From Enterobacter hormaechei ATCC 49162 (lineage in GTDB: Bacteria > Pseudomonadota > Gammaproteobacteria > Enterobacterales > Enterobacteriaceae), in contig NZ_MKEQ01000001.1 of the NCBI RefSeq assembly GCF_001875655.1, positions 496,001-560,000 on the forward strand: a DNA stretch of 64,000 nt, read 5' to 3'. The position numbers and the translations under genes were made by a program. Shown one piece after another: positions 2,664 through 19,226 of this stretch; within the stretch, counting starts at the first letter, position 1; the number at the start of each line of letters is the position of its first letter. The notes beneath the pieces are model-generated. The model did not search any database, was not told where the DNA came from, and saw nothing but the letters and a program-made list of their open reading frames with translations.

Positions 2664-3884
2664 TTACTTGTTGATACCAGACCCTTGCTCCAGCATGGCT
2701 GACGCATCGGAAATGGTGAACGAACCTGGTTTTTGACGAGGCGGGAACTCTTTAAAGGTTGCCAGCATCTCTTTCGCGTATTTCTGCGCACCCCCCATCA
2801 GGAACAGACGGTCGTAGAACCAGGAGTTATAGCCCATACCGTCGCTGCCTTTTTCCAGCGGGTCGATCTCGAGGTCAAAGATCATCGGTGTGCGAAGCTT
2901 GGTGAACGGATACTTCCACAGATCCAGACCGGTGTGCTCCTGAATCATAAAGTGCGCTTTCCAGCGACCGTAGCGCATCGCCAGCAGGTCACCGTCATCA
3001 CTCCAGTAGAAGAACTCTTTACGCTGGTTGTCACCTTTACCCTGAAGGAAATCGAGTTGGTTATACCCATCCAGATGGACCTTATAGGTCATAGAGGAGG
3101 TCTTATACCCCTTCAACAGCTCCTGTTTGATGTTGGGATCCCCTGCGGCGGCAACCAGCGTTGGGAACCAGTCATAGCTGGCAAACATGCCGTCAACAAT
3201 GGTGCCTGGCTTGATATGGCCCGGCCAGCGGATCATCGCCGGTACGCGGAAGCCGCCTTCCCAGCCGGTATTTTTCTCCCCACGGAACGGGGTTTCACCC
3301 GCATCTGGCCAGGTCGCCGTCATCGGGCCGTTATCCGTGGTGTAAATCAGGATGGTATTGTCTTCAATGCCCAGATCTTTGATTTTCTGAAGCACTTCGC
3401 CGATCATCTTGTCGTGTTCAACCATACCGTCGGCATACGTTCCCAGCCCTGTCGCGCCGATGCTGCCATCCTTCAGATGCGTTTTGTTGTGCATACGCGT
3501 CGTGTTGAACCAGGTAAAGAACGGTTTACCTGCTTTGGCCTGACGCTCCATAAAGTCATTGTTGGCCGCCAGCGTCTCTTCGTCCACGGTACCCATACGC
3601 TTCACCGTCAACGGACCGGTATCTTCGATTTTGCCGTCTGCGGTACTCTTAATGACGCCACGTGGGCCGAACTCTTTACGGAAGGCCGGGTCTTTCGGGT
3701 AATCCGGGTTTTCAGGTTCTTCTTCAGCGTTCAGGTGGTAGAGGTTACCGAGGAACTCATCGAAACCATGGGCAGTGGGCAGGAACTCATCGCGGTCGCC
3801 GAGGTGGTTTTTACCAAACTGGCCGGTCGCATAGCCCAGTTGCTTAAGGGCGCTGGCAATCGTAATGTCTTCTTTTTTCGGATA
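2664..3884 (-). pseudogene. Arylsulfatase, N-terminally truncated remnant
   Basis: From about 3878 leftward the frame encodes an uninterrupted arylsulfatase middle and C-terminus: KKEDITIASALKQLGYATG, QFGKNHLGDRDEFLP, HGFDEFLGNLYHLN, IYTTDNGPM, TPFRGEKNTGWEGGFRVP and a normal end at 2664. Upstream of the KKEDITIA block the frame stays open but shows no sulfatase features. The N-terminal domain is missing, with its metal-binding aspartates and the Cys/Ser-x-Pro-x-Arg site converted to formylglycine. The protein cannot be an active sulfatase, so I call a pseudogene. The breakpoint (3878-3890) touches the ribosome-binding site of the rightward AlbA_2 gene. The missing piece is not found elsewhere in this window, so this is more than a clean insertion: sequence has been deleted. 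Confidence 0.85.
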
Positions 3885-3893
3885 GAGGGGACT

Positions 3894-5036
3894 ATGAACG
3901 AAACCATCGAAAAACTGATTGCCAGTGGAAAGGAAGGGCCATGGTGGGACTTTAAACAAACCTACCACCAAAACAATGCAACCCTTGTTCACGATATCCT
4001 CTGCATGGCAAACGTCCTGCATGACGGTGACCGGTATCTGATTTTTGGCGTGAATGATGAAGGGGTGATTACCGGCGTGCCGGAAGATGGTAAGCAACTT
4101 AACCAGGCAAATTTAATCGATCTGTTAAGAAAAGTCAGTTTTGCAGAGCACCATTGTGAGGATATTCAGCTGCACCACATCACACTCCAGCATAAGGTGC
4201 TGGCTATTCTACAAATTCGTAACGTCAGAATGAAACCCTACTATCTGACCCAGGACTATATAAAAGAGGGAAAAACTGTCAGAGCCGGTGTCGTTTACAC
4301 CCGGCAACAAGATGCCAATACGCCCGTAACTAGCTGTGCCAGCCCTGGAGATGTCATGGCAATGTGGAGAGAGCGCTTTAACCTGGACCTGGCACCCGCT
4401 GACCGCATAGTCAGACTGCTTCTGGATTACGACAATTGGGAATATGACGGTATCAGCGAGGCCTATTATCGGTTGGACCCGGATTATGCCATTCATATTG
4501 GCTACACAGAAAAAGATATAGGAGGACAACACTGGTGGTCAACGATTAGCATTGAGCAACCTTGTCACTATGAATACATCCTCAAATACCGTGGGCTTGT
4601 ACTTGAACGAGTGCCAATCGTACATTACAGAAATGAGGGTTTACAGTTTCCCTTTCCAGAGATGGATACGCTGGCTTATCCAGGAAAAAGGGATGGATTC
4701 GTAACTGATTATTATGCAGACGTTTTTTACTTCGTAAAAAACACCTTACCCTACAATCTGTTGAGTCATATCAGAGAATTACACTCACTGCCTGGCCGTA
4801 ATTCAGGCATAACCATGCCGTTAACCACCCAGACCAAACCGCCGATTATCGAGCTGCCATTCATGGTGTTTGAGAACGCAGGGGAAAAAGAAGAAAAGCT
4901 AAAGTTTATTCAAAGTCAGCTTGCTGATTTTTGTCCGGATGGTATGCCTGATACAGCATCGATGAAAACTGACCCAGAACTAAGAATGGAAGTAGAGAGG
5001 CAATTTTCCTGGTGGGTTTTTAACCATATGCGTTGA
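3894..5036 (+). CDS. AlbA_2 (Schlafen-type) domain protein
   Basis: A 380-residue protein starting at the ATG at 3894, preceded by AGAGGGG at good spacing. The frame is open far upstream, but that stretch is antisense to the sulfatase and is not part of the gene. The N-terminal 130 residues match the AlbA_2 fold: EGPWWDFKQTYHQ (the usual E-x-x-x-x-D/E-F-K element), HDILCMANVLHDGDRYLIFGV, then GVITGVPEDGKQLNQANLIDLL. The remaining 250 residues are not recognised; they include HWWSTISIEQPCHYEYI and a C-terminal ERQFSWWVFNHMR. AlbA_2 domains bind nucleic acid and often occur in defence and mobile regions. The gene marks the left edge of the accessory island and abuts the sulfatase breakpoint. 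Function unknown. Confidence 0.8.
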   Translation: MNETIEKLIASGKEGPWWDFKQTYHQNNATLVHDILCMANVLHDGDRYLIFGVNDEGVITGVPEDGKQLNQANLIDLLRKVSFAEHHCEDIQLHHITLQHKVLAILQIRNVRMKPYYLTQDYIKEGKTVRAGVVYTRQQDANTPVTSCASPGDVMAMWRERFNLDLAPADRIVRLLLDYDNWEYDGISEAYYRLDPDYAIHIGYTEKDIGGQHWWSTISIEQPCHYEYILKYRGLVLERVPIVHYRNEGLQFPFPEMDTLAYPGKRDGFVTDYYADVFYFVKNTLPYNLLSHIRELHSLPGRNSGITMPLTTQTKPPIIELPFMVFENAGEKEEKLKFIQSQLADFCPDGMPDTASMKTDPELRMEVERQFSWWVFNHMR

Positions 5037-5113
5037 GCCGAAGCCAGTAACCCTGCCTGGGAGTTGTTCATTTTTGACGTTGCAACTAAAGGTCAGCGCT
5101 ACGATAGCGTGTT

Positions 5114-5123
5114 TTAGTGCGCA
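5114..5123 (+). repeat. Candidate left terminal inverted repeat of the island element
   Basis: TTAGTGCGCA here is the exact reverse complement of TGCGCACTAA at 19390-19399, just outside the recombinase operon. Reading outward from both copies, scattered further matches continue for about a dozen bases. Both copies lie in non-coding DNA flanking the block from the SEC-C gene to the recombinases. Ten bases alone could match by chance at this search size, so this is only a candidate element end. Confidence 0.3.
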
Positions 5124-5319
5124 CTCGCGTATTTTCTCCCTCTTGGGTGAATTTGGCCTACTTTCGCGGGCCATATACTGCCCCACGCACGACGATGTGC
5201 TTTAAGAGAGTCAACGGCAATACCAATAAAAAGCGCTCGGTTGCACGATGTGGACAGCATCCTGATATGGCTCCCGTGGACTTAGCCCCCGGCCGCGTCC
5301 AACATAGCGAAGCCAGCAC

Positions 5320-8118
5320 TCAGGCTCCATGACATTTTTTATACTTTACTCCCGACCCGCAGGGACAAGGTTCATTTCTGCCTACCGCCCCGAACAATCG
5401 CGTTACTTCGGATTTAGCCGCCTTGTAAGCAAGCTGCGCGATGTAGTTCGACTGATTTTCAACCTCTAGTCGCTGCTCACCTGTTAACCCTTCAAAAAAG
5501 GGGGCTAGCCGACACATCTCCGCTTCTGCCTGCTCATGTTCGCCTGCAAGTGCCAGTATAACGGCGTACTGGCTTCGGACCTGAACCAGTCGCTGTACTA
5601 GACCGGCTTCATTGACGACTGGCAGGACGTATTGCTCCATCACCTCTCTGGCACCGACATAGTCCTTTATTGCGACAAACTCATCAGCTAGATCCTGTCC
5701 TACCCGGACCAGAGATTCGGGGGCTGCGGTCATGTTATAAAATTTCATCGCGTGAATGCGCAGAAACGGTGACACCTTTCCCTGCGCATCATTAATTCTG
5801 GCGAGCAACTCTAGGGCATCGGCCAGATGTTTGATGTGCTCGTGAACATTTTCAGGCTGGTTGATGATTGCCCACAGCACATCCGAGTTTTTACCCATGA
5901 CATCCTGTGGGGTAATACCAAATAACGCGTAGTAGCGATTCACTACGCTCAGACACAGTGTTTCTGCTTGTTTGTATCTTTTCAGTCTCCAGAGCGCGAT
6001 AGCATGGTTATAGTCAAAAATACGCGCATGCTCCTCATCCGGAAGGCTGGGGCGGGCATCTTCAGCCAGCGTTTGCACTTCACTAAGGTCTCCCTTTTCG
6101 GATAAGAAAAGCATCCGTTTCATGGTGTAGGCCGTGCGTTCCCGGTAACCAAACTCATGTTCTGTAAGCAAAGCTCCCATCGCTTCCAGCCATTGTGCAA
6201 TTTGCTCAGAAACACCGTCTTTAAGCTCGGAAAAAACGAGCCCATCAAGTGCCCAGAACTTTTGTAAAGGCGCCAGAGAGTCCGAAGCTGTCGCCTGTTT
6301 CAGGCTTTCCATAATGTCGACAGCAATGCCCATCTCATAAAACAGCTCTTCACCAGATAGAGCGATGAGCGTCATGACATCGTTAAGCTTGATGTAAATC
6401 TGCGTTAGAAGAGAAAATCGCGAAGTGTCGCGTTCTTGCTGAAGGCTCTCAATCAAAAGATCTTTTAACGCCAGTAACGCGTTATTTACGATATCCACGT
6501 CCATCATGGTCAGGTGTTGCAGCCCCAGCGCCCTGACAGCATCGTGTACCTTTAACGTCTGGTTTCCATAGTTTTCAATGGTTCCGGTGGCCCGCATTTT
6601 TTTAATTAATGTGGCTGCCCCGTTTGAAGGGATATTCAATGAGCGGGCAAGGTACTCTGAAACTTCATCACGGCTTAGCCCCACATCGGACAGACTGAAC
6701 AACGCCAGAGCGTTCTGGACCAGTGGCTCAAACCCCTGATAGACACGGCTGAGAATGACTTCCTGCGCGGTTTCCGTACTGTTTTCCTGCTGCCGCAGTT
6801 CAGCACACAGCGTGTCTATATCCCCTTTGTATTCCTCTGCGGCAACTCTCGCCGCGCTTTCGACATACAGCGGCAACCCTCCGGTGTAGCTTCGTAGCTG
6901 CTCATATCCCAGCGCACTGGCGTGCCCACCGAGGTCGGCCACTGCGGCAGCCACTGTGTCGATATCCCATCCCTGTAACGATTCACGCTGAAGTCCAGTC
7001 ATCGCCTCCAGTTGACGGACATTGTCATGGGGCTGGCACAGCAGCACAAAATGGATACGGGTTGTGGCGTGCAGAACATCCCGCAAGTTCTCCACAGGGA
7101 TACGATGCGCATTATCCAGAACCAGCAGCAGGTTGTCGTTCCGTTGCTGCAAGAAGGTGTCGAACGTTCTCAGCGCTTCAACGCCACTGGCACCAGGGAG
7201 CAGTATTCTTCGCAGGCCACCTTGCTCCTGAGTCGCAAACCGGGCTGCCAGCTCACGAACCAGCGTACTGGCAAGTGCAGGGCCTGGAAGGTCGCCAGCG
7301 TCGTAATATGCACACGCCTGAGTACTGTGCTGGGCAGCCTGTGCTGCCCATGCTGTTTTACCTGCACCGGACAAGCCGCAAATGATGCGTATCCGCTCAT
7401 CCGACACAAAAGAGGGTTCCTCTCTTTGTGGCCGGTAGAGTGTCGGCGGTGCAGGGAAGTCCTGTAACTGAACGATGAGTTGTTCGAACAGGGCAGGAAG
7501 ATCCCGGGTATAAAACGCATGCTGTCCGTCAGCATCACCTCCGGTGGCGGCGAGCTGGACCAGACCGGCCATCTTCCAGATCAGGGATTCTGGCGACAAT
7601 AACGAAAAATTCAGTTGCTCTGCTTGCGCGATGCACCACGCGGCCGCATCAGCCACGGTGTCCCAGGCAGGGGGAAGTGCGGGATGGCGCTCAGCGGTTG
7701 ACTGGGGCCAGATAAAACGGACATCCGCAGGAAGCATATTATCCTCAATCATCTTCTGCAGATGTGAACCTGGTGCCTGGTTGGCGACGATAACGAAAGA
7801 AGCGCTTCCCTGGCGGCGCCCATCAGTGTGCTCGTTACGCAGCTCCGCAAACCGCGCGAGCGCGCTAGACACATCGCTGAGAATGATGGGTTTCAGGCGG
7901 GTTTTAACCTGAACGTAAATGCGCTCCTGCCCGGAGTTCAGCTCAATATCCTCATCCAGCTCAACGGTCACTGCCTCCACGCTGGCTTTCTGTGCCAGCA
8001 GCAAGCAGCCAACGGCATACAAGTGCTGATAAAGGAATCCCCGGTGTACGGCTTCAATACGTACCAACTGGGCAGAGTCCAAAACATCCGGCGTAGATTT
8101 TTCTTCGCTTCCCCGCAT
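5320..8118 (-). CDS. Nuclease-STAND NTPase-helical repeat-SEC-C fusion, putative defence protein
   Basis: A 932-residue multidomain protein. Residues 20-110 look like a Cap4/DUF4297-type PD-(D/E)xK nuclease: HRGFLYQHLYAVG, acidic residues in TVELDEDIEL (51-60), then QVKTR with Q70 and K72. Residues 240-420 form a P-loop NTPase with Walker A GLSGAGKT (248-255), Walker B LLLVLDNAH (D335) and a STAND-like GLPLYVESAARVA. From about 440 to 900 there are helical, TPR-like segments. The last 20 residues are a SEC-C motif (NEPCPCGSG, then KYKKCHG; C918, C920, C929, H930), which binds zinc. Nuclease-STAND-repeat proteins act in phage sensing (Avs and related systems), which suggests abortive infection; a SEC-C tail on one is unusual. 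Start ATG 8118 has GAGG at good spacing. It is divergent to the Gabija-like pair. Confidence 0.8.
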   Translation of the reverse strand: MRGSEEKSTPDVLDSAQLVRIEAVHRGFLYQHLYAVGCLLLAQKASVEAVTVELDEDIELNSGQERIYVQVKTRLKPIILSDVSSALARFAELRNEHTDGRRQGSASFVIVANQAPGSHLQKMIEDNMLPADVRFIWPQSTAERHPALPPAWDTVADAAAWCIAQAEQLNFSLLSPESLIWKMAGLVQLAATGGDADGQHAFYTRDLPALFEQLIVQLQDFPAPPTLYRPQREEPSFVSDERIRIICGLSGAGKTAWAAQAAQHSTQACAYYDAGDLPGPALASTLVRELAARFATQEQGGLRRILLPGASGVEALRTFDTFLQQRNDNLLLVLDNAHRIPVENLRDVLHATTRIHFVLLCQPHDNVRQLEAMTGLQRESLQGWDIDTVAAAVADLGGHASALGYEQLRSYTGGLPLYVESAARVAAEEYKGDIDTLCAELRQQENSTETAQEVILSRVYQGFEPLVQNALALFSLSDVGLSRDEVSEYLARSLNIPSNGAATLIKKMRATGTIENYGNQTLKVHDAVRALGLQHLTMMDVDIVNNALLALKDLLIESLQQERDTSRFSLLTQIYIKLNDVMTLIALSGEELFYEMGIAVDIMESLKQATASDSLAPLQKFWALDGLVFSELKDGVSEQIAQWLEAMGALLTEHEFGYRERTAYTMKRMLFLSEKGDLSEVQTLAEDARPSLPDEEHARIFDYNHAIALWRLKRYKQAETLCLSVVNRYYALFGITPQDVMGKNSDVLWAIINQPENVHEHIKHLADALELLARINDAQGKVSPFLRIHAMKFYNMTAAPESLVRVGQDLADEFVAIKDYVGAREVMEQYVLPVVNEAGLVQRLVQVRSQYAVILALAGEHEQAEAEMCRLAPFFEGLTGEQRLEVENQSNYIAQLAYKAAKSEVTRLFGAVGRNEPCPCGSGVKYKKCHGA

Positions 8119-8463
8119 TTTTGTTCCTCAAGTTACTTGTCAGAAGTACCCAAGATTTACCTATCAGCGTGCGCAATGGAACTTAAGTATGGCTACCAAA
8201 AGTTTGACCAGAACACACGGATTAATCGGTGCGCAACAATTTCACCTCATATTCTGGTGGAGGCTGATGTAGTTCGTATGGTGTTACATCAATAAATTGA
8301 AGGAAATCCACCCGCTGTCAGATATGTCAGTAAAACAGGCTATATATCATTGATTAAGAAATTCGGGGGCGTTACTTTTATCCGTGTCAGTGCACTGGCT
8401 GCGCATTTGTAGTTATCTTTACGACAGGCGAGTGGACAAAAAGAATAAAAGAGGGAGAGTCCC
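8119..8463. promoter_or_regulatory. Divergent promoter region between the SEC-C gene and the Gabija-like pair
   Basis: This 345-base gap separates two divergent defence transcripts and must hold both promoters. It is AT-richer than the flanking genes and has no convincing reading frame. GTGCGCAA occurs twice, near 8170 and 8230, in direct orientation about 60 bases apart. A purine-rich AGAGGGAGAG just before 8464 is the ribosome-binding site of the nuclease gene. I see no clear sigma-70 consensus boxes. Confidence 0.5.
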
Positions 8464-10200
8464 ATGGTCAGAGTTTGTAAAGTTGAAATCCAGAACTTCC
8501 GATCTATTCGTTTGCTGACCTGGTTGCCTTCGCCAGGGCTCAACTGCCTCATGGGCCCTGGGGACAGTGGCAAGACCACCATTCTTGACGCTATAGATTT
8601 GTGCCTGGGGGCGCGGCGTAATGTCAGTTTCAGCGACACCGATTTTTTTGGTCTCGATGTGACTCAGCCCATCAGTATTACCCTGACCCTGGGGTCATTG
8701 CCGGATGCGCTGAGGACAATGGAAACCTACGGCAATTATTTGCAGGCATTCAACAGCGCGACGGGGCAGATACAGGAAGAGCCCCAGCTCGGGCTGGAAA
8801 CGGTTTTGTGTCTGCGGCTTAGCGTCGACAGTGAACTGGAGCCTAACTGGACGCTGGTGTCTCAGCGTGCCGAAGTGCTAGGTCAGGAACGCAATCTGGC
8901 CTGGAAAGATCGGCTGCTCATCGCACCGGCGAGATTTGGCACCTATGCAAGCTCAAATTTGTCCTGGGCACGCGGATCGGTGCTTAATCGGCTCACGGAG
9001 GAGCGCCCTAATCTGGGGGCTGAACTGTCAAATGCTGCGCGTCAGGCCCGAACCAGTTTCGGTGGTCAGGCAGCGGTACAACTCGCGGCAACGCTGGACG
9101 TAGTTACTCAGAAGGCCAATGAGTTGGGTGTGCCGGTCGGTGGTCGGACTCAGGCCTTACTGGACGCTCACGCGGTTTCTATCGGCGATGGTGCAATTGC
9201 GCTGCACAACGCCGCTGGTGTGCCGCTGCGTTCTCTTGGTACGGGGTCGTCCCGTCTTCTGGTGGCAGGAATGCAGCGTGCTGCCGCGCAACGGGCCTCC
9301 GTGGCGCTGGTCGATGAAGTGGAATACGGACTCGAACCGCATCGGCTTACCCGGTTACTGAACTCACTGGGGGCCAGGGAAACACCGCCGCCACTTCAGG
9401 TTTTTCTGACCACACACTCTCCCGTGGCCGTGCGTGAGCTTAATGGCAACCAGCTCTTTGTCGTGCGGGGCCATCCGACAGCACCCCACCTGGTGCTGCC
9501 GGTGGGCATTTCCGATGATATTCAAAGTACGGTCCGGGCCGACCCCGAAGCCTTTCTGGCGCGTAGCGTGATCGTCTGTGAAGGGGCGAGCGAGGTAGGG
9601 TTAATCCGCGGGCTGGATCACTACTGGACCTCCCTCAACGGTAATTCCATGCTGAGTGCAGGAACCGCATTCGTGAATGTTGGTGGAGGAGAGCCTGACC
9701 GATGTTTTGTGCGTGGGCTAGCACTGAGTCGACTTGGCTACCGTGTGCTGGTTCTGGTGGATGCGGATAAGCCGCCCACCCCGGCGACGGTCGAGGCCTT
9801 CGAGGCTGCGGGTGGAGAACATATCACATGGCGAGCCGGTCGCGCGCTGGAGGATGAATTGTTTATGAGCCTGCCGGATGCAGGCGTCGACGCGCTGCTT
9901 CAACGAGGTATTGAGCTTATGGAGGAGGAACTGGTGGCGGCACATATCCAGACGCAATCCAACGGTCAGGTAACGCTTGCCCATATTCGGCAACAGCGGC
10001 ACCTGATTGGGGGGCCTTATTCTCCTGAAATACGACAACTATTGGGACTCACTGCGCGTAACCGACGAAACGGGTGGTTTAAATCGGTGACCCGGTATGA
10101 GGATGTGGCGCACGATATCCTCGGTCCTCATCTCCCCGCGTCCGATGCCGGGTTCCAGGCGCTGATTAGCCGGCTTTACTGGTGGGCACATGCCGCCTGA
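8464..10200 (+). CDS. Gabija-like GajA: OLD-family ATPase/TOPRIM nuclease
   Basis: A 578-residue overcoming-lysogenization-defect (OLD) family protein. The N-terminal ABC-type ATPase shows VCKVEIQNFRSIRLL, Walker A GPGDSGKTT (31-39), a signature-like SLGTGSSRLLVAG, Walker B VALVDEVEYGLEPH (D284, E285) and the H-loop LTTHSPVAV (H318). The C-terminal TOPRIM domain carries VIVCEGASEVGL (E373) and LVLVDADK (D433, D435), the metal-binding acidic residues. Length equals that of the founding GajA. Its 3' end overlaps a UvrD-like helicase gene by 11 bases; that pairing defines class 2 OLD / Gabija systems, in which GajA nicks DNA when nucleotides are depleted and GajB is the partner helicase. Start ATG 8464 follows AGGGAGAG. 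Sequence alone does not prove activity, but all key motifs are present. Confidence 0.88.
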   Translation: MVRVCKVEIQNFRSIRLLTWLPSPGLNCLMGPGDSGKTTILDAIDLCLGARRNVSFSDTDFFGLDVTQPISITLTLGSLPDALRTMETYGNYLQAFNSATGQIQEEPQLGLETVLCLRLSVDSELEPNWTLVSQRAEVLGQERNLAWKDRLLIAPARFGTYASSNLSWARGSVLNRLTEERPNLGAELSNAARQARTSFGGQAAVQLAATLDVVTQKANELGVPVGGRTQALLDAHAVSIGDGAIALHNAAGVPLRSLGTGSSRLLVAGMQRAAAQRASVALVDEVEYGLEPHRLTRLLNSLGARETPPPLQVFLTTHSPVAVRELNGNQLFVVRGHPTAPHLVLPVGISDDIQSTVRADPEAFLARSVIVCEGASEVGLIRGLDHYWTSLNGNSMLSAGTAFVNVGGGEPDRCFVRGLALSRLGYRVLVLVDADKPPTPATVEAFEAAGGEHITWRAGRALEDELFMSLPDAGVDALLQRGIELMEEELVAAHIQTQSNGQVTLAHIRQQRHLIGGPYSPEIRQLLGLTARNRRNGWFKSVTRYEDVAHDILGPHLPASDAGFQALISRLYWWAHAA

Positions 10201-11608
10201 CTACAACCTGCTGGAATATCATCGGGGGGCGATTACGGCCCCGGCCGGGTGCGGTAAAACACAAATCATTGCGGATACCCTGGCCCTGCATACGGGGACC
10301 AGGCCGGTACTTATCCTCACGCACACCAACGCGGGTGTGACAACACTGCGTCTGCGTATGCAACGTGCCGGGGTTTCTGCCGTGGCCTACCGTATCGCCA
10401 CCATTGATGGATTTGCCATGCGTCTTGTGGCGATGTTTCCGGCGCGGAGTGGGCTCAATGTTGAGGTCCTTCAACTACGCAATCGCAGAACTGACTATCC
10501 CGCTATACGGCAGGCTGCCTGCCAGTTGCTGCAGGCAGGGCATCTCAATGATATTCTGGCGGCCAGTTACGCTCACCTCATCGTGGACGAATACCAGGAC
10601 TGCAACCTGGTGCAACATGCACTGGTAACCGCGCTATCAACGGTGCTGCCTGCCTGTGTACTGGGTGACCCCATGCAGGCCATTTTTGGCTTTCGGGGGA
10701 ACCAGCTCGTGGACTGGGATGCACATGTACTCTCTCACTTTCCACTGATTGGTGAGCTCAATCATCCATGGCGCTGGGCTAACGCAGGGGCGCCGGAGCT
10801 CGGTCGCTGGCTTCTGGACTGCCGACGGATGTTGCTGAATGGTAACGCCATTGACCTTCGCCAGGTGCCTGCTGAGGTGACCTGGGTGCCGTTACGGGCA
10901 GAAACAGTTGTTCAGCAGCGCCTTACTGCAGCCCTGACACGCGCTGTCACCGCAAACGGGCAGGTACTGGTGATTGGAAACAGCTATGACACCCGCGGGC
11001 GTCAGCAGATGGCCAGCCAGACCCCGGGAGCAACGACCGTCGAAGCCGTCGATTTAGTCGACCTTACCGACTTTGGTGCAGCGTTTAACCTAGACGCTGC
11101 GGATGCGTTGACGCGCCTGGTGCAGTTTGCCGCAGGCGTCATGACCCAAGTTGGCCCCGCAGCATTGCTGCCCCGTCTGGAAACGCTACGAAGAGGGCGA
11201 GCCCGCAACCCGCCGACGGTTGCCGAAGCAGCGTTAGTGGCATTTGCAGAGAGACCCGGTTTTACGCTGGCCGCTGAGGCACTGCGCCTTCTGACCCGCC
11301 AGGATAATGCGCGGGTCTATCGGCCAGAGGTTTTGCGCTGTTGTTTGCGCGCCTTGCAGTCGGCTGCTGCCGGAGGCTGCACATTTGCAGACGCCACGGT
11401 AAACGAGCGCGAACGCAATCGCCACGAGAGTCGACCATTGGCCCGGCGTGTAATCGGCAGCACATTGTTGCTAAAGGGACTGGAAGGGGAGGTGGCAGTC
11501 ATCACATCCCCGGAAGAGATGGATGCACGACACCTCTATGTCGCTATGACGCGGGGATCTTCGCGGCTGGTTGTGTGCTCGCTAACTCCCATATTGACGG
11601 CCCGCTAA
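10190..11608 (+). CDS. Gabija-like GajB: UvrD/Rep-type helicase
   Basis: A 472-residue superfamily 1 helicase. Walker A reads TAPAGCGKTQ (G20-T24), motif Ia THTNAGVTTLRLRM, motif II LIVDEYQDCN (D133-D137), motif III GDPMQAIFGFRG (159-170), and the C-terminal motifs V/VI STLLLKGLEGEVAVI and YVAMTRGSSRL near residue 450. It is compact compared with housekeeping UvrD (about 720 residues), in line with GajB proteins. The ATG at 10190 lies inside the end of the OLD nuclease gene, 11 bases before its stop in another frame, so the two are translationally coupled. The helicase is expected to form a complex with the upstream nuclease and sense processed DNA during phage attack. No third gene follows in the same direction; the next gene is a leftward regulator. 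Confidence 0.88.
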   Translation: MPPDYNLLEYHRGAITAPAGCGKTQIIADTLALHTGTRPVLILTHTNAGVTTLRLRMQRAGVSAVAYRIATIDGFAMRLVAMFPARSGLNVEVLQLRNRRTDYPAIRQAACQLLQAGHLNDILAASYAHLIVDEYQDCNLVQHALVTALSTVLPACVLGDPMQAIFGFRGNQLVDWDAHVLSHFPLIGELNHPWRWANAGAPELGRWLLDCRRMLLNGNAIDLRQVPAEVTWVPLRAETVVQQRLTAALTRAVTANGQVLVIGNSYDTRGRQQMASQTPGATTVEAVDLVDLTDFGAAFNLDAADALTRLVQFAAGVMTQVGPAALLPRLETLRRGRARNPPTVAEAALVAFAERPGFTLAAEALRLLTRQDNARVYRPEVLRCCLRALQSAAAGGCTFADATVNERERNRHESRPLARRVIGSTLLLKGLEGEVAVITSPEEMDARHLYVAMTRGSSRLVVCSLTPILTAR

Positions 11609-13495: not shown

Positions 13496-13930
13496 TTATG
13501 ACGACTTATGTAGTTCCCGAATCATATGGTTGGCCAACAGGCTTTCCACCGGTATAACCGAATTGATTTTTACCGCTTTGACAATTTCTATCAACGAAAG
13601 GGTATTTTGCGCTAATTGGTCTCGCAATTCACTTACTTCAGCCTGCAACTGCTGGTTTCTGGCCAGCAAAGCCTGACGGGTTTTGCGGTTGACGTATTGC
13701 TGTTTTTCTTTTGGGCGTAGATTCAATGGGCCAAGTTGCTGGTCAACATAGGCAGCAATTAGGCGTTTACGCTCTAGGCTGCTCAGCGTACTTAAACCAC
13801 CGTTAACGATACCTTTTGCCTTGAGCCTAATATGCAGGGCCTTGGCGGAAATAGGGGACTTGTCAAAGCCTTCAACCAGCATCAGTTGTAATTCGTGCTC
13901 AATCAGTGTGTTCAGTTCCTTGCCGCGCAT
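13496..13930 (-). CDS. Small coiled-coil accessory protein of the recombinase operon
   Basis: A 144-residue protein, last gene of the recombinase operon. Its ATG at 13930 overlaps the preceding stop by one base (TGATG). The N-terminal half is helical and basic (LNTLIEHELQLMLVEGFDKS, then ISAKALHIRLKAKGIVNGG and SSLERKRLIAAYVDQQL). Residues 75-125 form a coiled coil (RQALLARNQQLQAEVSELRD, QLAQNTLSLIEIV). Tn554-type transposons carry a comparable small protein (TnpC, about 125 residues) after their two tyrosine recombinases, which affects efficiency and orientation of insertion. Position, size and fold type suggest an equivalent role, but I see no direct sequence match. It probably binds DNA or bridges recombinases. 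Confidence 0.65.
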   Translation of the reverse strand: MRGKELNTLIEHELQLMLVEGFDKSPISAKALHIRLKAKGIVNGGLSTLSSLERKRLIAAYVDQQLGPLNLRPKEKQQYVNRKTRQALLARNQQLQAEVSELRDQLAQNTLSLIEIVKAVKINSVIPVESLLANHMIRELHKSS

Positions 13931-16296
13931 CAATCATTCTCCTGCATCAATTGTTGGTATTCAAGTGCAAAAAGCTGGGCCAGTGTACGGACTTTGCCCT
14001 CGGTGATTACTCCACCAGACAACACACTCTCAGCAGCAACCAGTTGTTGAGTCTTGGCACGACGATGCCATTGTGCTTGTATTGCCTCGAGTTGCTGTAA
14101 CCGTCGTTCGATGTCGGCCAGTCTGGTCTGGTAATCAGGCTGATGTTGAGTAAGTTGGGTCAACTTCGAATGTGCTTGCTGTAAAGCCTGTTTTTTGGCA
14201 ATCAGATTTGGCAGCTCATCTATCCGGCCTGTCAGCGTGAAATGTTCACAAAAGGCAGCACTCTGGCATTTCAGTCGATAAGGACATCCCCAGAGGTTAA
14301 CTTCCCGCATACAGGAGCCAAATTTCAGCGGATACAGCACGGCATGTCTTGCCACCATGTCAGAGGCTTGCTCTGGTCCTTCTGCGTCGCGGATTTCTTC
14401 AAAGGCGGCAGCAACATCTTCAAAGAGGCCGTTAGCAAATGACGCCTCGACAAACCTGGCTACATCATCCCGATCGTCAAAAGTATGCAGGTTGGCTTTG
14501 ATGGTATTGTCCAAAGTCATGTGTTCCGTGACCGCCAGTTGGCCGGTCCGTTTGACGATATCCAGTGGCGTAGCAATGGAGGACGAAGAGGGCGAGACAG
14601 TTAGTGCTGTCGAAATCGGCTGCAAGGGCACCAACGAGGCGGCTTTTCGCCGTTCTGCAAGCGCCAGATGTTGATAATGCTGATTCTGCGTGATGTCCAC
14701 TCGACCCATCAACATTGCCTGTAAGTGGTCAGAGATATCCGCAATAGCAAGAAAGGTATTGATGTTGTGCCGGGGAATGTGGGTACGCATCCGCGTCGAG
14801 GTGCCATCCTCCTCCAGTAATTGATATTTGCTGAATACTGATCCATCAGGCTCAACGTTGCCTAAGAATTTATTCATAAGTGTGTTAGTGAAGGGTATCG
14901 GTGTAGCCAGCAAAGCCAGTGTGCGCTTTAATGCCAGCGAACCCTTCTCGTGTAGAAATAGCAGATCCTCGTAGTTAACTTGGTAGCGTTTGCCATTTTC
15001 CATCCAGGCGTGTGTACAGGGTTCGTTGGCATTCGCCAGGCCAAATTCGGTCTTAATGTAATGATTGAGAGCAGTCTTGGAATAATCGATAGATTTGCTG
15101 TTTTTCGGGCCTGGTATTTCTTGAACGGGCAGCACACCTCTTTTGCTAAGGGCTTTGGATGTTTTGTCCCGTTGTCCTGCCCGGCCCCGAAAACTTGAGG
15201 TAGTTTGGGTGATGTACTTCACCACATCGTCCAGTTCGACTCGTTCACCGGGCATGTTGCTGATGGCCTGTGGCAGGTAATCAGCAAAAGATTTTGCCCG
15301 TAGATAGGTAAGATGGCTGCGTATTGGTGCGGTCAACATTTTAACGGTACTGAATATACTCTCGACCAGCGGTACTGCCAGCGGTTCTACCCAATGCGTT
15401 CGCTCCCCAGCACCTTTGACACCAACATAACGGATACCAAGAAAATAATCGGGTAATCCCTTGTCCTGAAATCGTTTGCAGATTGCCGGATCATCAATCT
15501 GGCGTTTAAACAGGGCATCCTGTCTGAGATTAAACGCTTCAATGGAGCGAAAGCCGGTAATAACCAATAACAACAGGCAATTTAACGCGATTTTCTCAGC
15601 ATCACTTTCCACCCGCTGGATTAATGCAACTATGTTCAGAAATCCGCGAATGGTAATCAACGCATCTTCACCATCGGTAGTGGTATCAGACAGCTTGGCC
15701 TGCTGTTTCAGCGCCATGGTTTCCCGGGCTTTGCGGGTCAAGTTGGTTTTGTTGGTATACTTCACATCAGAGTTGTATTGCAGTTTAACCAACGTAAATG
15801 TGAAGTGATTGACCAATTTTTGAAGGCTAACGCACCGCCCTTTATAGTTAGCTGTATTGGGGTCACTAGGAGATGAAACGCTACTGAGAAGATCCATCGC
15901 TCGTTGAATGACAACTGTGCTCAGGTAAGATGGATGGGTCTGTCCTGTCTCATAAAGCATCGCATGGTACCATCGTTTCAGAATCATCAAAGTTGCCTTT
16001 GCCACCGCTGGCGACATACTCCTATTTCCCTGTCGGTAAACCACTACCAGCATAGCTTTCATGAACTGACTATATTCTTTGTCGATGGGCAGATGTTCTA
16101 CAATACCTTTGAATCTGTTCATCTCATCAAAACGTAATGTATTTCTGCCGTTCCCTCGCAACCATCCACTTCCCTGGTTACCACTTACCCAGATATGATC
16201 ATTCCATGTTTGGGCAAAATCAGCAGACAGGTGCTGTTCGAACCATTTTTTTTGCTCTTCAATAAAAGCCTGAAAATGCTCAAAGTGATTTTTCAT
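13930..16296 (-). CDS. Large tyrosine-recombinase-like protein with zinc-finger tail
   Basis: A 788-residue protein, third and largest of the trio. The catalytic domain is recognisable: box I LLLVITGFRSIEAFNLR (R250), box II RMRTHIPRHNINTF (H506, R509, H510), then LMGRVDITQNQHYQH with R532 where many integrases have His, and Y541 as likely nucleophile. The gap between box I and box II is much longer than in ordinary integrases, so there is an insertion of over 100 residues. The C-terminus has cysteines 662, 671, 677 and 683 (C-x8-C-x5-C-x5-C), followed by a coiled coil (KKQALQQAHSKLTQLTQHQ). TnpB of Tn554 is also larger than TnpA, but this protein is larger still. It starts 17 bases before the end of the gene upstream. 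Confidence 0.78.
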   Translation of the reverse strand: MKNHFEHFQAFIEEQKKWFEQHLSADFAQTWNDHIWVSGNQGSGWLRGNGRNTLRFDEMNRFKGIVEHLPIDKEYSQFMKAMLVVVYRQGNRSMSPAVAKATLMILKRWYHAMLYETGQTHPSYLSTVVIQRAMDLLSSVSSPSDPNTANYKGRCVSLQKLVNHFTFTLVKLQYNSDVKYTNKTNLTRKARETMALKQQAKLSDTTTDGEDALITIRGFLNIVALIQRVESDAEKIALNCLLLLVITGFRSIEAFNLRQDALFKRQIDDPAICKRFQDKGLPDYFLGIRYVGVKGAGERTHWVEPLAVPLVESIFSTVKMLTAPIRSHLTYLRAKSFADYLPQAISNMPGERVELDDVVKYITQTTSSFRGRAGQRDKTSKALSKRGVLPVQEIPGPKNSKSIDYSKTALNHYIKTEFGLANANEPCTHAWMENGKRYQVNYEDLLFLHEKGSLALKRTLALLATPIPFTNTLMNKFLGNVEPDGSVFSKYQLLEEDGTSTRMRTHIPRHNINTFLAIADISDHLQAMLMGRVDITQNQHYQHLALAERRKAASLVPLQPISTALTVSPSSSSIATPLDIVKRTGQLAVTEHMTLDNTIKANLHTFDDRDDVARFVEASFANGLFEDVAAAFEEIRDAEGPEQASDMVARHAVLYPLKFGSCMREVNLWGCPYRLKCQSAAFCEHFTLTGRIDELPNLIAKKQALQQAHSKLTQLTQHQPDYQTRLADIERRLQQLEAIQAQWHRRAKTQQLVAAESVLSGGVITEGKVRTLAQLFALEYQQLMQEND

Positions 16297-17845
16297 TGGA
16301 CTTCACCTGTTCCTGATGAAAACGGCAGCGGGCGATAACAGACTCAATTTCAAACTGTGTGGTTTCATGGATTAAAATGAGCGGATTTCGGGAATTACCT
16401 ACACCGTCTGAAATAGCGATTAGTTCATCGACTTCTTTTTTGACGCATTCAAGTAGAGCCTGATGTTCACCATCCGTAAAAGGGCGATAATACAGACAGC
16501 CGTAACAAGAACGCACTTCGCTGAAAGGGCATGTACTACTGTTCCTGGAGCAACCACCAATTTTATCATGCAACTCGTCACCAACGAGTCCCACCACTGG
16601 ATGGCCTTTCCAATGTGCTGAGTCGACCAGTTCCCCAGTGAGCATCATAGCCACCATATTTTGCCAAACGGGATTCGACCCAAGCGCTTTAGCACGGATC
16701 AAGGCCAACGCGGGAGTTGCCATAATGTAGTATTTAGCTACGGCAAGAGAGGTGTGCCCCAGTACATGTGCTATCTCTTCAGCGCTAGCACCTTGCATCG
16801 CCAAAGAGTGCCCAACATTGTGGCGTAAATCAGTGGGTGTAATTGTGGGCAATGCAGCTTCGCCACATGCTACGGCGGCTTGATATTCAGGAGGACAGAA
16901 ATTTAGGATTGCCTGATTAATTGCCTGAGACACATAATGCGGAGCTGAAACGCTGAAATCGAATAGTTTATCTTCGGGGTTTTTCTTATATCTCACGGTA
17001 TAGTTCATAATTAACTCCCCAATTTCTGGGGGGATCGCCAGAAATAACCGCTCTGTCGTCACTCGTCTTTGTTTAGCATATGGTAAAAAGACACTGTATC
17101 GAATCAGACCAGATTCCTGATTTCGTGTATCGATACGAACATCTTTGACCGCCAGCCTAGCGAGTTGTACTGGGCGTGCACCCGTTACATAAGCCAACCC
17201 AAGGATAGCTGCATTGCGCACTTCGCTGTGACTGAAACTTTTGCCATCGCGTAACAACGAAGCCATTTCAAACAGTCCATTGCAAATCATGTTTTTTTCA
17301 AGAGGGTCAAGAATATTATCGATTTCTTGGTAAACCCCCCAATGTTCGAGATACGGTCGAGGGACGAACTCAAGATCATCGTAATCTTCAAGATTGAAAC
17401 CTGGGAATGTTTCAGCACAAAGTATTTTTAATCCGAATAACACGGAATAAAAAGTAGCATTATCAATATCCTCTTTTTCGATAAATAATCGGAGCGTACT
17501 AAGCGAAAACCCACCATGTTCTCGACAATATGAAATGATATTCCTCCAATCAAGGTGCAACGCTGGAAGTTTGGTTGGAAATCTCGTCGATGCATATTTG
17601 AAACAGATATACTTGTTTAATTTATTTGAGATATAATCTTGATTGAAAACAAGATATCGCCGACTGCCTGAATAATCGAAAGTCCATTTATTTCCTTTGT
17701 TAACAATATATTTATCATCAAACTCCATTGCCGTTTTTAGATAAATTCGATCAGGAATATCGAGTTCAAAGATAGCCTTAGCTAAATCAGGAGGGTAAAC
17801 TGAGTTCCCTTCGTCAGATTTTAATGCATTATCAAATGATGTCAT
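16280..17845 (-). CDS. Tyrosine recombinase, second of the trio, with a C-terminal Cys cluster
   Basis: A 521-residue tyrosine recombinase. Box I reads LAYVTGARPVQLARL (R224). Box II reads TITPTDLRHNVGHSLA, with R341 present but Thr338 where the usual His of HxxR stands. VLGHTSLAVAKYYIMA supplies H364 and the nucleophile Y372 or Y373. After the catalytic domain, cysteines 432, 439, 447 and 450 (GGCSRNSSTC, RSCYGC) suggest a zinc-binding module similar in position to that of the 788-residue protein. The N-terminal 160 residues are unrecognised and AT-rich in codon use. The gene overlaps the first recombinase by 14 bases and the third by 17. The His-to-Thr change is known to be tolerated in some family members, so activity cannot be ruled out. 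Confidence 0.85.
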   Translation of the reverse strand: MTSFDNALKSDEGNSVYPPDLAKAIFELDIPDRIYLKTAMEFDDKYIVNKGNKWTFDYSGSRRYLVFNQDYISNKLNKYICFKYASTRFPTKLPALHLDWRNIISYCREHGGFSLSTLRLFIEKEDIDNATFYSVLFGLKILCAETFPGFNLEDYDDLEFVPRPYLEHWGVYQEIDNILDPLEKNMICNGLFEMASLLRDGKSFSHSEVRNAAILGLAYVTGARPVQLARLAVKDVRIDTRNQESGLIRYSVFLPYAKQRRVTTERLFLAIPPEIGELIMNYTVRYKKNPEDKLFDFSVSAPHYVSQAINQAILNFCPPEYQAAVACGEAALPTITPTDLRHNVGHSLAMQGASAEEIAHVLGHTSLAVAKYYIMATPALALIRAKALGSNPVWQNMVAMMLTGELVDSAHWKGHPVVGLVGDELHDKIGGCSRNSSTCPFSEVRSCYGCLYYRPFTDGEHQALLECVKKEVDELIAISDGVGNSRNPLILIHETTQFEIESVIARCRFHQEQVKSNEKSL

Positions 17846-19226
17846 CGTTATATCTATCCATTATAGTATCTAACGTATTATGTAGCGCTGCATTGTCTTG
17901 AATAATTCGTTGGACATTGGCAGCATTAGCCTGCTCAGACAGGAAACGTTTTGCATATAGATCAGGCATTTGACTTGTCGGACTCCATCCCCCCATCAGT
18001 CGTAGTTCATCTTTGGCTTCTTCCATTATCCCTGAGAGGGAAGGGACTTCAGCAATAAAGTGTGTTTTATTTTGCTGGCTTTTCAAATATTTTAAATGCC
18101 ATATTTTTTGCAATGTCAAAAAGGCCCAAGTATGTCGGGTTGTATGCGGAGTCAATCGTTGCAACGAGTCAGAGTACAACGGTGATTTGTACTCTGGATA
18201 TTGGTTAGTGAAGACCTGATCTATTTTCGAAAAAATAGAATGAACTGATGTGTAGGACAAAGGCTTCGCTGACTGTTGACTCGATGTAAAGATGAAATCG
18301 TGTTTATCAGTTTTTGGTCGAAGCTTTGCTATATAAATGCTTAAAAAAATATAATCCTGCTTATCGAGCTCCAACACACGATTAGCCCATGCATTTTTGA
18401 GAGATGGCGCATTCTTTCTTGGTTCGTATGCCTCGTCGACAGTTGTCACAATCAAACTAAACTTATCACCTTTTAAATTAGGTTTAATTGAGCTGCACTC
18501 TAACAACAATAGCTCACCTGTTCGTAAACCATAATTTAACAACAGACGAATAATCAAAAAATTGCGGAACTGAAGATGCCCGGAAGGGAAAGGATTTAGC
18601 GGGTTATGCTTTTGGGCAGAAGAGGGGGTTATTATTCCATACAGGCTGAGCACCATTGCCCCAGACAAACTCTGAAATCCTTGGCTGCTGTGACTATGTT
18701 GCGAAAATTTGTTTGATGTAAGCGTTCGATAATTCTCCCGGCAAAGCTGTAAACGGGTGTGTAAACGCGAAGCCAAAAGTGATAATGCTTTGGGAGAGTC
18801 ATCCCGGTATGCAGGTGATATGTAGGTGTTAATCAAAAAAGAAATGAAATGGATCACAGCACGAACTCTAACTGTATGAGTTAAGCTATTGGCTTTTGTG
18901 ACTCTCGTTAAAGACAACACATTTGACTGGACGTTGTGGCCATTTTCTAGATACATCCAAAATGCGGGCATTTCACCGACAGCAATGTCTGGATTGTGGT
19001 CAGATGAATAGAAGCTGTAGCAAAACGAGACACCATACTTTTGCCTCCAGAATTCGTAAAAAAACTTCACAGATTGAAGTGAAGCTGACTGTGTGGACAA
19101 TGAGCGGAAAGCCAAATGGTCAATATGGTACCTAAGGGGATACAGCAACGGCAGAGAGGTTTCCAAGTCCATCAGGATCCATCGCCTTTTACGGCCTGAG
19201 ATAACCAACTGCTTTAGTGAATACAC
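17832..19226 (-). CDS. Tyrosine recombinase, first of the trio
   Basis: A 464-residue tyrosine recombinase, first gene of the operon. The catalytic set is complete: LNYGLRTGELLLLE (R235), LTPHTTRHTWAFL (H361, R364), LMGGWSPTSQMPDLYAKRFL with W414 in place of His and Y424 as nucleophile. A SAM-like N-terminal domain spans roughly 30-180. I chose the GTG at 19226 because GAGG lies eight bases before it; an internal ATG 18 codons later is possible. It lies closest to the right end of the island, where an element integrase is expected. The Trp-for-His substitution is common in this family. It likely works with the two downstream recombinases, with which it overlaps. Confidence 0.88.
   Translation of the reverse strand: MYSLKQLVISGRKRRWILMDLETSLPLLYPLRYHIDHLAFRSLSTQSASLQSVKFFYEFWRQKYGVSFCYSFYSSDHNPDIAVGEMPAFWMYLENGHNVQSNVLSLTRVTKANSLTHTVRVRAVIHFISFLINTYISPAYRDDSPKALSLLASRLHTRLQLCRENYRTLTSNKFSQHSHSSQGFQSLSGAMVLSLYGIITPSSAQKHNPLNPFPSGHLQFRNFLIIRLLLNYGLRTGELLLLECSSIKPNLKGDKFSLIVTTVDEAYEPRKNAPSLKNAWANRVLELDKQDYIFLSIYIAKLRPKTDKHDFIFTSSQQSAKPLSYTSVHSIFSKIDQVFTNQYPEYKSPLYSDSLQRLTPHTTRHTWAFLTLQKIWHLKYLKSQQNKTHFIAEVPSLSGIMEEAKDELRLMGGWSPTSQMPDLYAKRFLSEQANAANVQRIIQDNAALHNTLDTIMDRYNDDII

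Follow-up and report, generated by a model that had tools for sequence, protein, structure and literature searches.

The 64,000-nucleotide stretch of Enterobacter hormaechei ATCC 49162 analysed here (contig NZ_MKEQ01000001.1, positions 496,001 to 560,000; hereafter the window) carries gajA and gajB, the two genes of a Gabija defence system, head-to-head with a gene for a 932-residue protein that combines a Cap4-like nuclease, a predicted STAND NTPase and a SEC-C motif. We believe, with a probability of roughly 0.8, that Gabija and the 932-residue protein are independent modules that form a composite cassette in Enterobacterales and are carried as cargo of a three-integrase island. Because relatives often have either module without the other, we favour separate cargo rather than one three-gene system, and a new system composed of gajAB plus the large gene is not supported. 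An earlier, sequence-only reading of this DNA had offered two possibilities, namely independent cargo or a large protein that acts as a layered partner and senses failure of Gabija. The survey counts and the single losses in both directions that are presented below support the first of these. The second finds no support, as the large gene is full-length and constrained where Gabija is missing.

The genes, and the parts of the large protein to which we refer, are as follows.

5320..8118, minus strand: 932-residue Cap4-like nuclease/STAND NTPase/SEC-C protein (open reading frame (ORF) with an ATG start, Pfam, 33-sequence alignment)
7759..8085, minus strand: its N-terminal Cap4/DUF4297-like nuclease region, residues ~12-120, with the catalytic signature at 52-74 (Pfam Cap4_nuclease, PADLOC LmuA over residues 11-120, invariant residues)
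7027..7401, minus strand: P-loop NTPase core of its putative STAND region, residues 240-364 (AAA_22; GLSGAGKT at 248 and LLVLDN at 331; GLPLY at 414 falls outside)
5326..5379, minus strand: its SEC-C zinc-binding motif, residues 914-931 (PF02810, 40.4 bits)
8119..8463, no strand: divergent intergenic region of 345 bp (ORF map; a junction of 344-345 bp in five related loci)
8464..10200, plus strand: gajA, class 2 OLD nuclease of Gabija, 578 residues (PDLC04168, motifs)
10190..11608, plus strand: gajB, UvrD-like helicase of Gabija, 472 residues (PDLC04173, motifs)

The ORF map confirms the arrangement described in the sequence-only reading, in which the large gene diverges from gajAB across 345 bp. 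The two Gabija genes overlap by 11 bases, and a simple scan of 8050-8520 found no sigma-70 promoter-like site. When two good defence systems have a junction in common they are easily misread as one new system, and counted evidence such as losses, a tree and a control gene helps to tell neighbours from the parts of a single system.

Co-occurrence of the two modules

Relatives of the large protein were surveyed in species-representative genomes, where 80 of the 115 relatives were kept, representing 77 distinct loci, with at least 4 kb of upstream sequence present in 66 of these. When searched with GajA by tblastn and with a hidden Markov model (HMM) of 121 GajA sequences, two of the 77 loci proved to have a Gabija of the window's type in the head-to-head position. 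They come from Enterobacter (L041; locus labels are our own) and Rahnella (L048), where the large protein has 96% and 92% identity, respectively, to that of the window. A third GajA match, at L081, reached just E 5.6e-6 with the 121-sequence HMM.

A neighbour survey covered the two nearest longer ORFs on each side of the large gene at 68 loci (nine near-duplicates of the 77 omitted), with 187 of 189 neighbour proteins scanned. Gabija genes of any kind were found within two genes of the large gene at five of these 68 non-redundant loci, in four arrangements. The L041 and L048 modules are head-to-head, whereas L052 has a gajB piece in tandem, L081 has a complete Gabija pair of another subtype (PDLC00090/00103) convergent to the end of the large gene, and L050 has, beyond one intervening gene, a gajB of a third subtype (PDLC00113) with a GajA-like match beside it. 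Other neighbours match PADLOC models for Lamassu, Avs2, IetAS, Mokosh, AbiH, type IIG and RmrA, and on the strength of such matches the neighbourhoods of the large gene resemble defence islands.

The reverse search gives a similar picture. A GajA match with an E-value of 1e-60 or lower is present in six of 394 genomes of the order, the window's own included, and the 8-19 kb read around each of the other five showed nothing of the large gene. The large gene does not behave as an obligatory third Gabija gene, since it was not seen at these five loci as far as they were read and is reduced to a stub in two Klebsiella plasmids (L121 and L122). According to the sequence-only reading, the pairing would be chance co-residence if each partner mostly occurred without the other, and to a large extent this is what was found, with 2/77 loci head-to-head, 5/68 with any Gabija and 0/5 in the reverse direction.

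Plasmid sequences were compared by using the best 40 of 293 records with a GajA match and the best 40 of 54 with a match to the large protein. Among the matches listed, 19 records hold GajA at 90% or more; 15 of these 19 retain a remnant amounting to 10-16% of the large gene, and the other four do not appear among the listed large-gene matches. The large-gene matches listed include every plasmid record that retains 80% or more of that gene, 24 in all, and none of these is among the 19 GajA records.

Two further comparisons put these counts in context. On a tree of the large protein (74 of 85 rows, with 11 removed by a motif and length filter), the Gabija label requires six changes. Supported branches make at least four of them unavoidable, and a value equally low was reached in 98 of 500 shuffles. 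As a control, the distance from a GajA-like gene (PDLC00099 at E <= 1e-8) was measured to the large gene and to HsdM in 50 genomes; 12 of 62 loci were omitted from this set, and in a number of genomes just 19 GajA candidates were scored. With a limit of 10 kb, a GajA-like gene accompanies the large gene in 4/50 cases and HsdM in 2/41 (Fisher p 0.69).

Retention and loss among close relatives

Losses of one module are readily observed among close relatives. For Escherichia coli complete genomes we used the best 40 of 65 records matching the large gene and the best 60 of 84 matching gajAB, and among the matches listed 36 records have the large gene at full length and at least 97.8% DNA identity. 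In five of the 36, Gabija is damaged or gone: gajB is cut beside a Tn7-like element in two, and Gabija is deleted in three (L037, L118 and L146). The deletion in L037, L146 and L147 joins window position 8410 to 11456 and leaves 46 residues of gajB next to a full-length large gene, and L118 has the deletion of L037 but a damaged large gene as well. A different Gabija deletion, which leaves 50 residues of gajA, is found in the Klebsiella plasmids L039 and L150. Losses in the other direction are represented by the Klebsiella plasmids L121 and, in a different manner, L122, where gajAB is full-length and the large gene is a stub.

Both modules can also disappear in one event. In L148 (E. coli H1, 5815-6983), a single deletion runs from near the end of the large gene to the middle of gajB and takes all of gajA with it, such that window position 5533 is followed by 10626. 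In 23 of the 60 E. coli gajAB records, what is left of gajB begins at this same point (query 2161-2163), and therefore the pair has often been lost together.

More distant copies of the large gene exist without Gabija. Sixteen further E. coli records have a 60-80% identical copy. In the one whose context was annotated (L038:12001-14799), the large gene is 73% identical and is flanked by a DUF977 gene and hokD, inside a lambdoid prophage that lacks Gabija. Six IMG/VR loci (L134-L139) hold the large gene in flanking DNA that matches L038, and Gabija is absent in 6/6.

The cassette has not stayed in one genetic setting. Plasmid pEC2-4 (L147) carries the Gabija-deleted cassette next to a recombinase block that is more diverged, its 788-residue protein being 63% identical. 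This different block implies that the altered cassette itself has moved, and suggests that cargo moves between islands. The parts of the cassette were seemingly exchanged separately, because dS (synonymous divergence) between the window and L119 is unequal: the large gene has a value of 0.05, whereas gajA has 0.22 and gajB 0.15.

Selection has acted on whichever module survives. The ratio of nonsynonymous to synonymous divergence (dN/dS) for the large gene is 0.19 between L037 and L039, both of which lack Gabija, and 0.13 between the window and L041 or L048. For GajA it is 0.10-0.11 between the window and L122 or L048, with the L122 comparison at 0.10. The surviving module is under purifying selection in paired and unpaired lineages alike.

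These data bear directly on the layered arrangement, in which the 932-residue protein would guard Gabija and fire when a phage inhibits GajAB, for example by means of an anti-Gabija protein. Guard logic is known in other systems. In its favour, the two modules have a divergent intergenic region in common, and an anti-Gabija protein, Gad1, is described in PMC10781630. Given that most relatives have no Gabija nearby, that deletion of Gabija has left the large gene at full length and subject to purifying selection, and that prophage copies occur without Gabija, we consider this arrangement highly improbable. Retention of the full-length large gene without Gabija is also why we rejected it as the leading explanation.

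Several observations weigh against the independence of the two modules. Relative to the HsdM control, the counts of GajA-like genes are 3/50 versus 0/41 within 5 kb (p 0.25) and 5/50 versus 3/41 within 25 kb (p 0.73). Addition of L041, whose gajA is broken, and of L052, with its gajB piece, gives 6/50 versus 2/41 (p 0.29), although here the large-gene side alone was extended. With so small a sample, GajA may still be mildly enriched near the large gene. Among the matches listed, 31 E. coli records retain 80% or more of gajAB, and every one of them belongs to the 36 that have the full-length large gene (the gene annotation is split in two of the 31, H103 and H104), so that linkage is tight in this lineage. 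The junction, at 344-345 bp, is the same in the window, L041, L048, L119, L121 and L122, and has persisted in several lineages that have diverged to a dS of up to 0.3-0.5. Rahnella L048 shares 5079-11589 with the window and shows no recombinase of this block in its 10-kb flanks; the pair can thus move as a unit to a new setting. Finally, a Klebsiella michiganensis contig (89% for the large protein, 82%) and another (72%, 83%) probably hold both modules, since their lengths, 52545 and 23970, recur in the match lists of both proteins. Since the junction is common to several enterobacterial lineages, chance co-residence in this strain alone is rejected.

Such findings would be expected if the modules were separate systems that are co-selected in Enterobacterales as a cooperative pair, each covering the escape routes left by the other, with additive or synergistic effect and with no physical coupling. 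The composite cassette might then use its shared intergenic region for control and exhibit synergy, for example if the STAND nuclease catches phages that evade or inhibit GajAB, with each module acting alone elsewhere. Because of the constant junction, the Rahnella cassette and the two probable contigs, we grant a co-selected pair a small but appreciable chance. It remains unlikely in light of the single losses both ways, the lack of a significant excess over the HsdM control and the joint deletion in E. coli L148. For independent modules, the head-to-head junction would date from one enterobacterial lineage, or from before it, with later copying as a cassette from which either half can be lost and the other retained.

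The two modules and their probable functions

The Gabija genes are strongly matched by existing models. GajA matches PADLOC PDLC04168 over residues 1-577 (E 3.8e-240) and GajB matches PDLC04173 over residues 5-470 (E 3.1e-194), with Pfam scores of 24.9 for OLD-like TOPRIM (cut-off 23.2) and 69 for UvrD-helicase (cut-off 23). Motifs are found in GajA at 31-38 (Walker A), 372 (CEGASE), 405 (NVGGG) and 432 (VDADK), and in GajB at 20-24 (GCGKT) and 133 (DEYQD). The models, the Pfam cut-offs and the motif positions agree with the earlier description of a class 2 OLD nuclease/UvrD helicase pair with its catalytic motifs. PMC10781630 gives the class 2 OLD definition and the TOPRIM active-site residues (E, G and DxD), with which the present GajA agrees.

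By these matches, gajA and gajB are an ordinary example of Gabija, an abundant known system. They share with it both genes, their order and overlap, the TOPRIM and superfamily 1 (SF1) helicase motifs and the strong GajA and GajB model matches, and no difference points to a new system; their model group is PDLC04168/04173. The best PDB sequence matches of the window's GajAB are OLD nuclease, PtuA, RecF, PcrA and UvrD, with no Gabija entry among them. Other Gabija systems form a GajA4-GajB4 complex, cleave DNA and protect against phage. Based on the family and the intact motifs, GajA, an ATPase with a TOPRIM nuclease, would act on phage DNA jointly with the SF1 helicase GajB. A search of IMG/VR found no GajA relatives.

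Gabija pairs elsewhere in the order have other company. Two of the five other GajA loci of the order, L129 and L130, have GajAB at 82% identity and quite different neighbours. A similar gene follows GajAB at both (L129:4845-5936 and L130:12962-13942), with the L129 copy matching DUF5677. At L129, moreover, a gene that encodes PRTase-CE and an OLD-like TOPRIM in one protein diverges from gajA, its start 286 bp away.

The 932-residue protein is, in our opinion, more important than the pairing, and its Cap4-STAND-SEC-C family is a good single-gene defence candidate. In Pfam, the protein scores just under the cut-off for Cap4_nuclease (25.9 versus 26.2) and over it for AAA_22 (33.9 versus 27) and SEC-C (40.4 versus 20.4), and all three families match 33/33 aligned members at E <= 0.01. 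This alignment holds 33 of the 120 listed homologues, the other members being 51-92% identical to the first. Residues invariant in 33/33 are E53, D55, D57, E59, Q70, V71 and K72 in the nuclease, G248, G251, G253, K254 and T255 in the P-loop, and D335, N336, G414 and P416 further on. Where the sequence-only reading had assigned a nuclease, a signalling NTPase and repeat domains, the first two are thus borne out by Pfam and the invariant residues, and the repeats are weak, with TPR or ARM models matching in only 1-2 of the 33 members. The STAND label is one that we take from motifs known from the literature together with AAA_22/AAA_16 matches.

Pattern counts over the 77 loci suggest that the nuclease and NTPase form the core of the protein and that SEC-C is optional. 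The nuclease pattern is present in 77/77 loci, within the first 160 residues in 70 and at a later point in the remaining seven, which all come from Sphingopyxis and have a longer stop-to-stop frame. The P-loop pattern is present in 76/77. A strict SEC-C pattern is found in 49/77, where the misses are variants, truncated contig ends, broken frames or lineages that truly end earlier. At six loci whose proteins end before SEC-C (L054, L056, L059, L072, L076 and L105), a common convergent small gene lies 74-108 bp downstream.

The family is apparently a widespread, stand-alone Cap4-STAND family that is seemingly still unnamed. Among 8000 scored candidates there are 871 homologues at E <= 1e-3, and six bacterial phyla are represented in the family tree. 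For the window protein and the 33 members, no model in PADLOC 2023 covers the family beyond single domains; PADLOC LmuA, for instance, matches residues 11-120 (E 6.4e-8). PDB sequence searches returned matches to the SEC-C stretch only, except one at E 0.52. In the open full-text literature, with most subscription journals and bioRxiv outside it and Gamma-Mobile-Trio papers included, no paper listed was evidently on this protein. One Gabija paper (PMC12407980) contains neither SEC-C nor STAND nor defense island as a term.

The layout resembles that of Avs and other antiviral STAND proteins. Avs proteins have an N-terminal effector nuclease, a central STAND NTPase and a long C-terminal half, all encoded by a single gene. 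The 932-residue protein shares this layout and its single gene, and it has the P-loop, a Walker B-like motif, GLPL and nuclease motifs. TPR or ARM matches, which might hint at a sensor fold, occur in 1-2 of the 33 members. However, neither it nor any of the 33 members matches an Avs model of PADLOC at E <= 0.001, and it differs from Avs2 in length (Avs2 models have 1375-1576 positions) and in its terminal SEC-C motif. With Lamassu LmuA and CBASS Cap4 it shares the Cap4-type nuclease domain only. No match to LmuB or to a CBASS cyclase was found among ten scanned window proteins, and Pfam gave no match to a SAVED domain. With the nuclease domain alone in common, membership of Lamassu or CBASS is rejected.

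Given this architecture, the protein is most likely an Avs-like, nuclease-based, one-protein alarm. Its C-terminal half would sense a cue of infection, and the STAND NTPase would bind ATP and bring about assembly. The Cap4-like nuclease at the N-terminus would then cut DNA, presumably its target. The infected cell would probably be killed or arrested. An alternative is that the protein is a stress or housekeeping ATPase with no role in defence that is in islands by happenstance, and the occurrence of SEC-C in SecA and YchJ-type proteins would be compatible with this. We consider it quite improbable in view of the Cap4-like nuclease match in every aligned member, the neighbours that match Lamassu, Avs2, IetAS, Mokosh, AbiH, type IIG and other PADLOC models, and a patchy distribution. 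Specifically, among 295 genomes of the host's family, a match better than E 2.5e-8 occurs in the window's own genome only, and the other listed matches are short and surround the SEC-C motif.

In some lineages the large gene has a different companion. A same-strand gene of one family lies 24-79 bp upstream of it at L082, L083, L088, L093, L094, L100 and L117, and downstream at L043. This group is mostly alphaproteobacterial, and L082 is titled Gammaproteobacteria. The partner genes of L117 and L043 match Peptidase_C92, a permuted papain-like amidase, and the large gene and its Peptidase_C92-type neighbour are a candidate two-gene operon in their own right.

The host island and its remaining genes

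Two further features complete the locus.

13496..19226, minus strand: four-gene recombinase block (464, 521, 788 and 145 residues), ginABCD-like (ORFs; Phage_integrase and integrase_1 for the 521-residue protein)
3888..5036, plus strand: AlbA_2/Schlafen-type protein, PADLOC candidate PDC-S50, tail-to-tail with the 932-residue gene (PDLC05032, E 3.9e-81; SLFN_AlbA_2)

The placement of both modules inside one mobile element, as had been proposed, is upheld by three recombinase-like genes and a 145-residue gene that adjoin the cargo on one strand with overlapping ends. Among the 521-, 788- and 145-residue proteins, which the scan covered, integrase matches were obtained for the first only. E. coli L037 has the same four genes beside hipAB, annotated twice as site-specific integrase and twice as hypothetical. 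PMC5385486 defines a GInt as an operon in which three integrase genes are joined by a fourth, small one, with cargo after it, and PMC10121019 places GInts at E. coli defence hotspots and names Gabija among the systems in the legend of its figure.

The island shares with GInts a block in which a small gene accompanies three recombinase-like ones, the overlapping ends and the cargo that follows, and we regard it as GInt-like by gene layout. A GInt would also have imperfect direct repeats at its flanks and an empty site; no convincing repeat pair was found at the inferred ends of this island. Homology to relatives of the island ends at 3878, inside a sulfatase gene (2664-4097), and the 5' part of this gene was not recognised in the right flank. 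Homology of the sulfatase gene to a same-genus relative is lost at ~3875, exactly at the start of the cargo.

The cargo in E. coli also holds the AlbA_2 gene, and that of L119 holds an Avs2-like gene in addition, which is missing in the window because the shared cargo stops at 3878. The AlbA_2 gene adjoins the large gene in L037, L118, L119, L120, L146, L147 and L149, and a partial match is present in L036.

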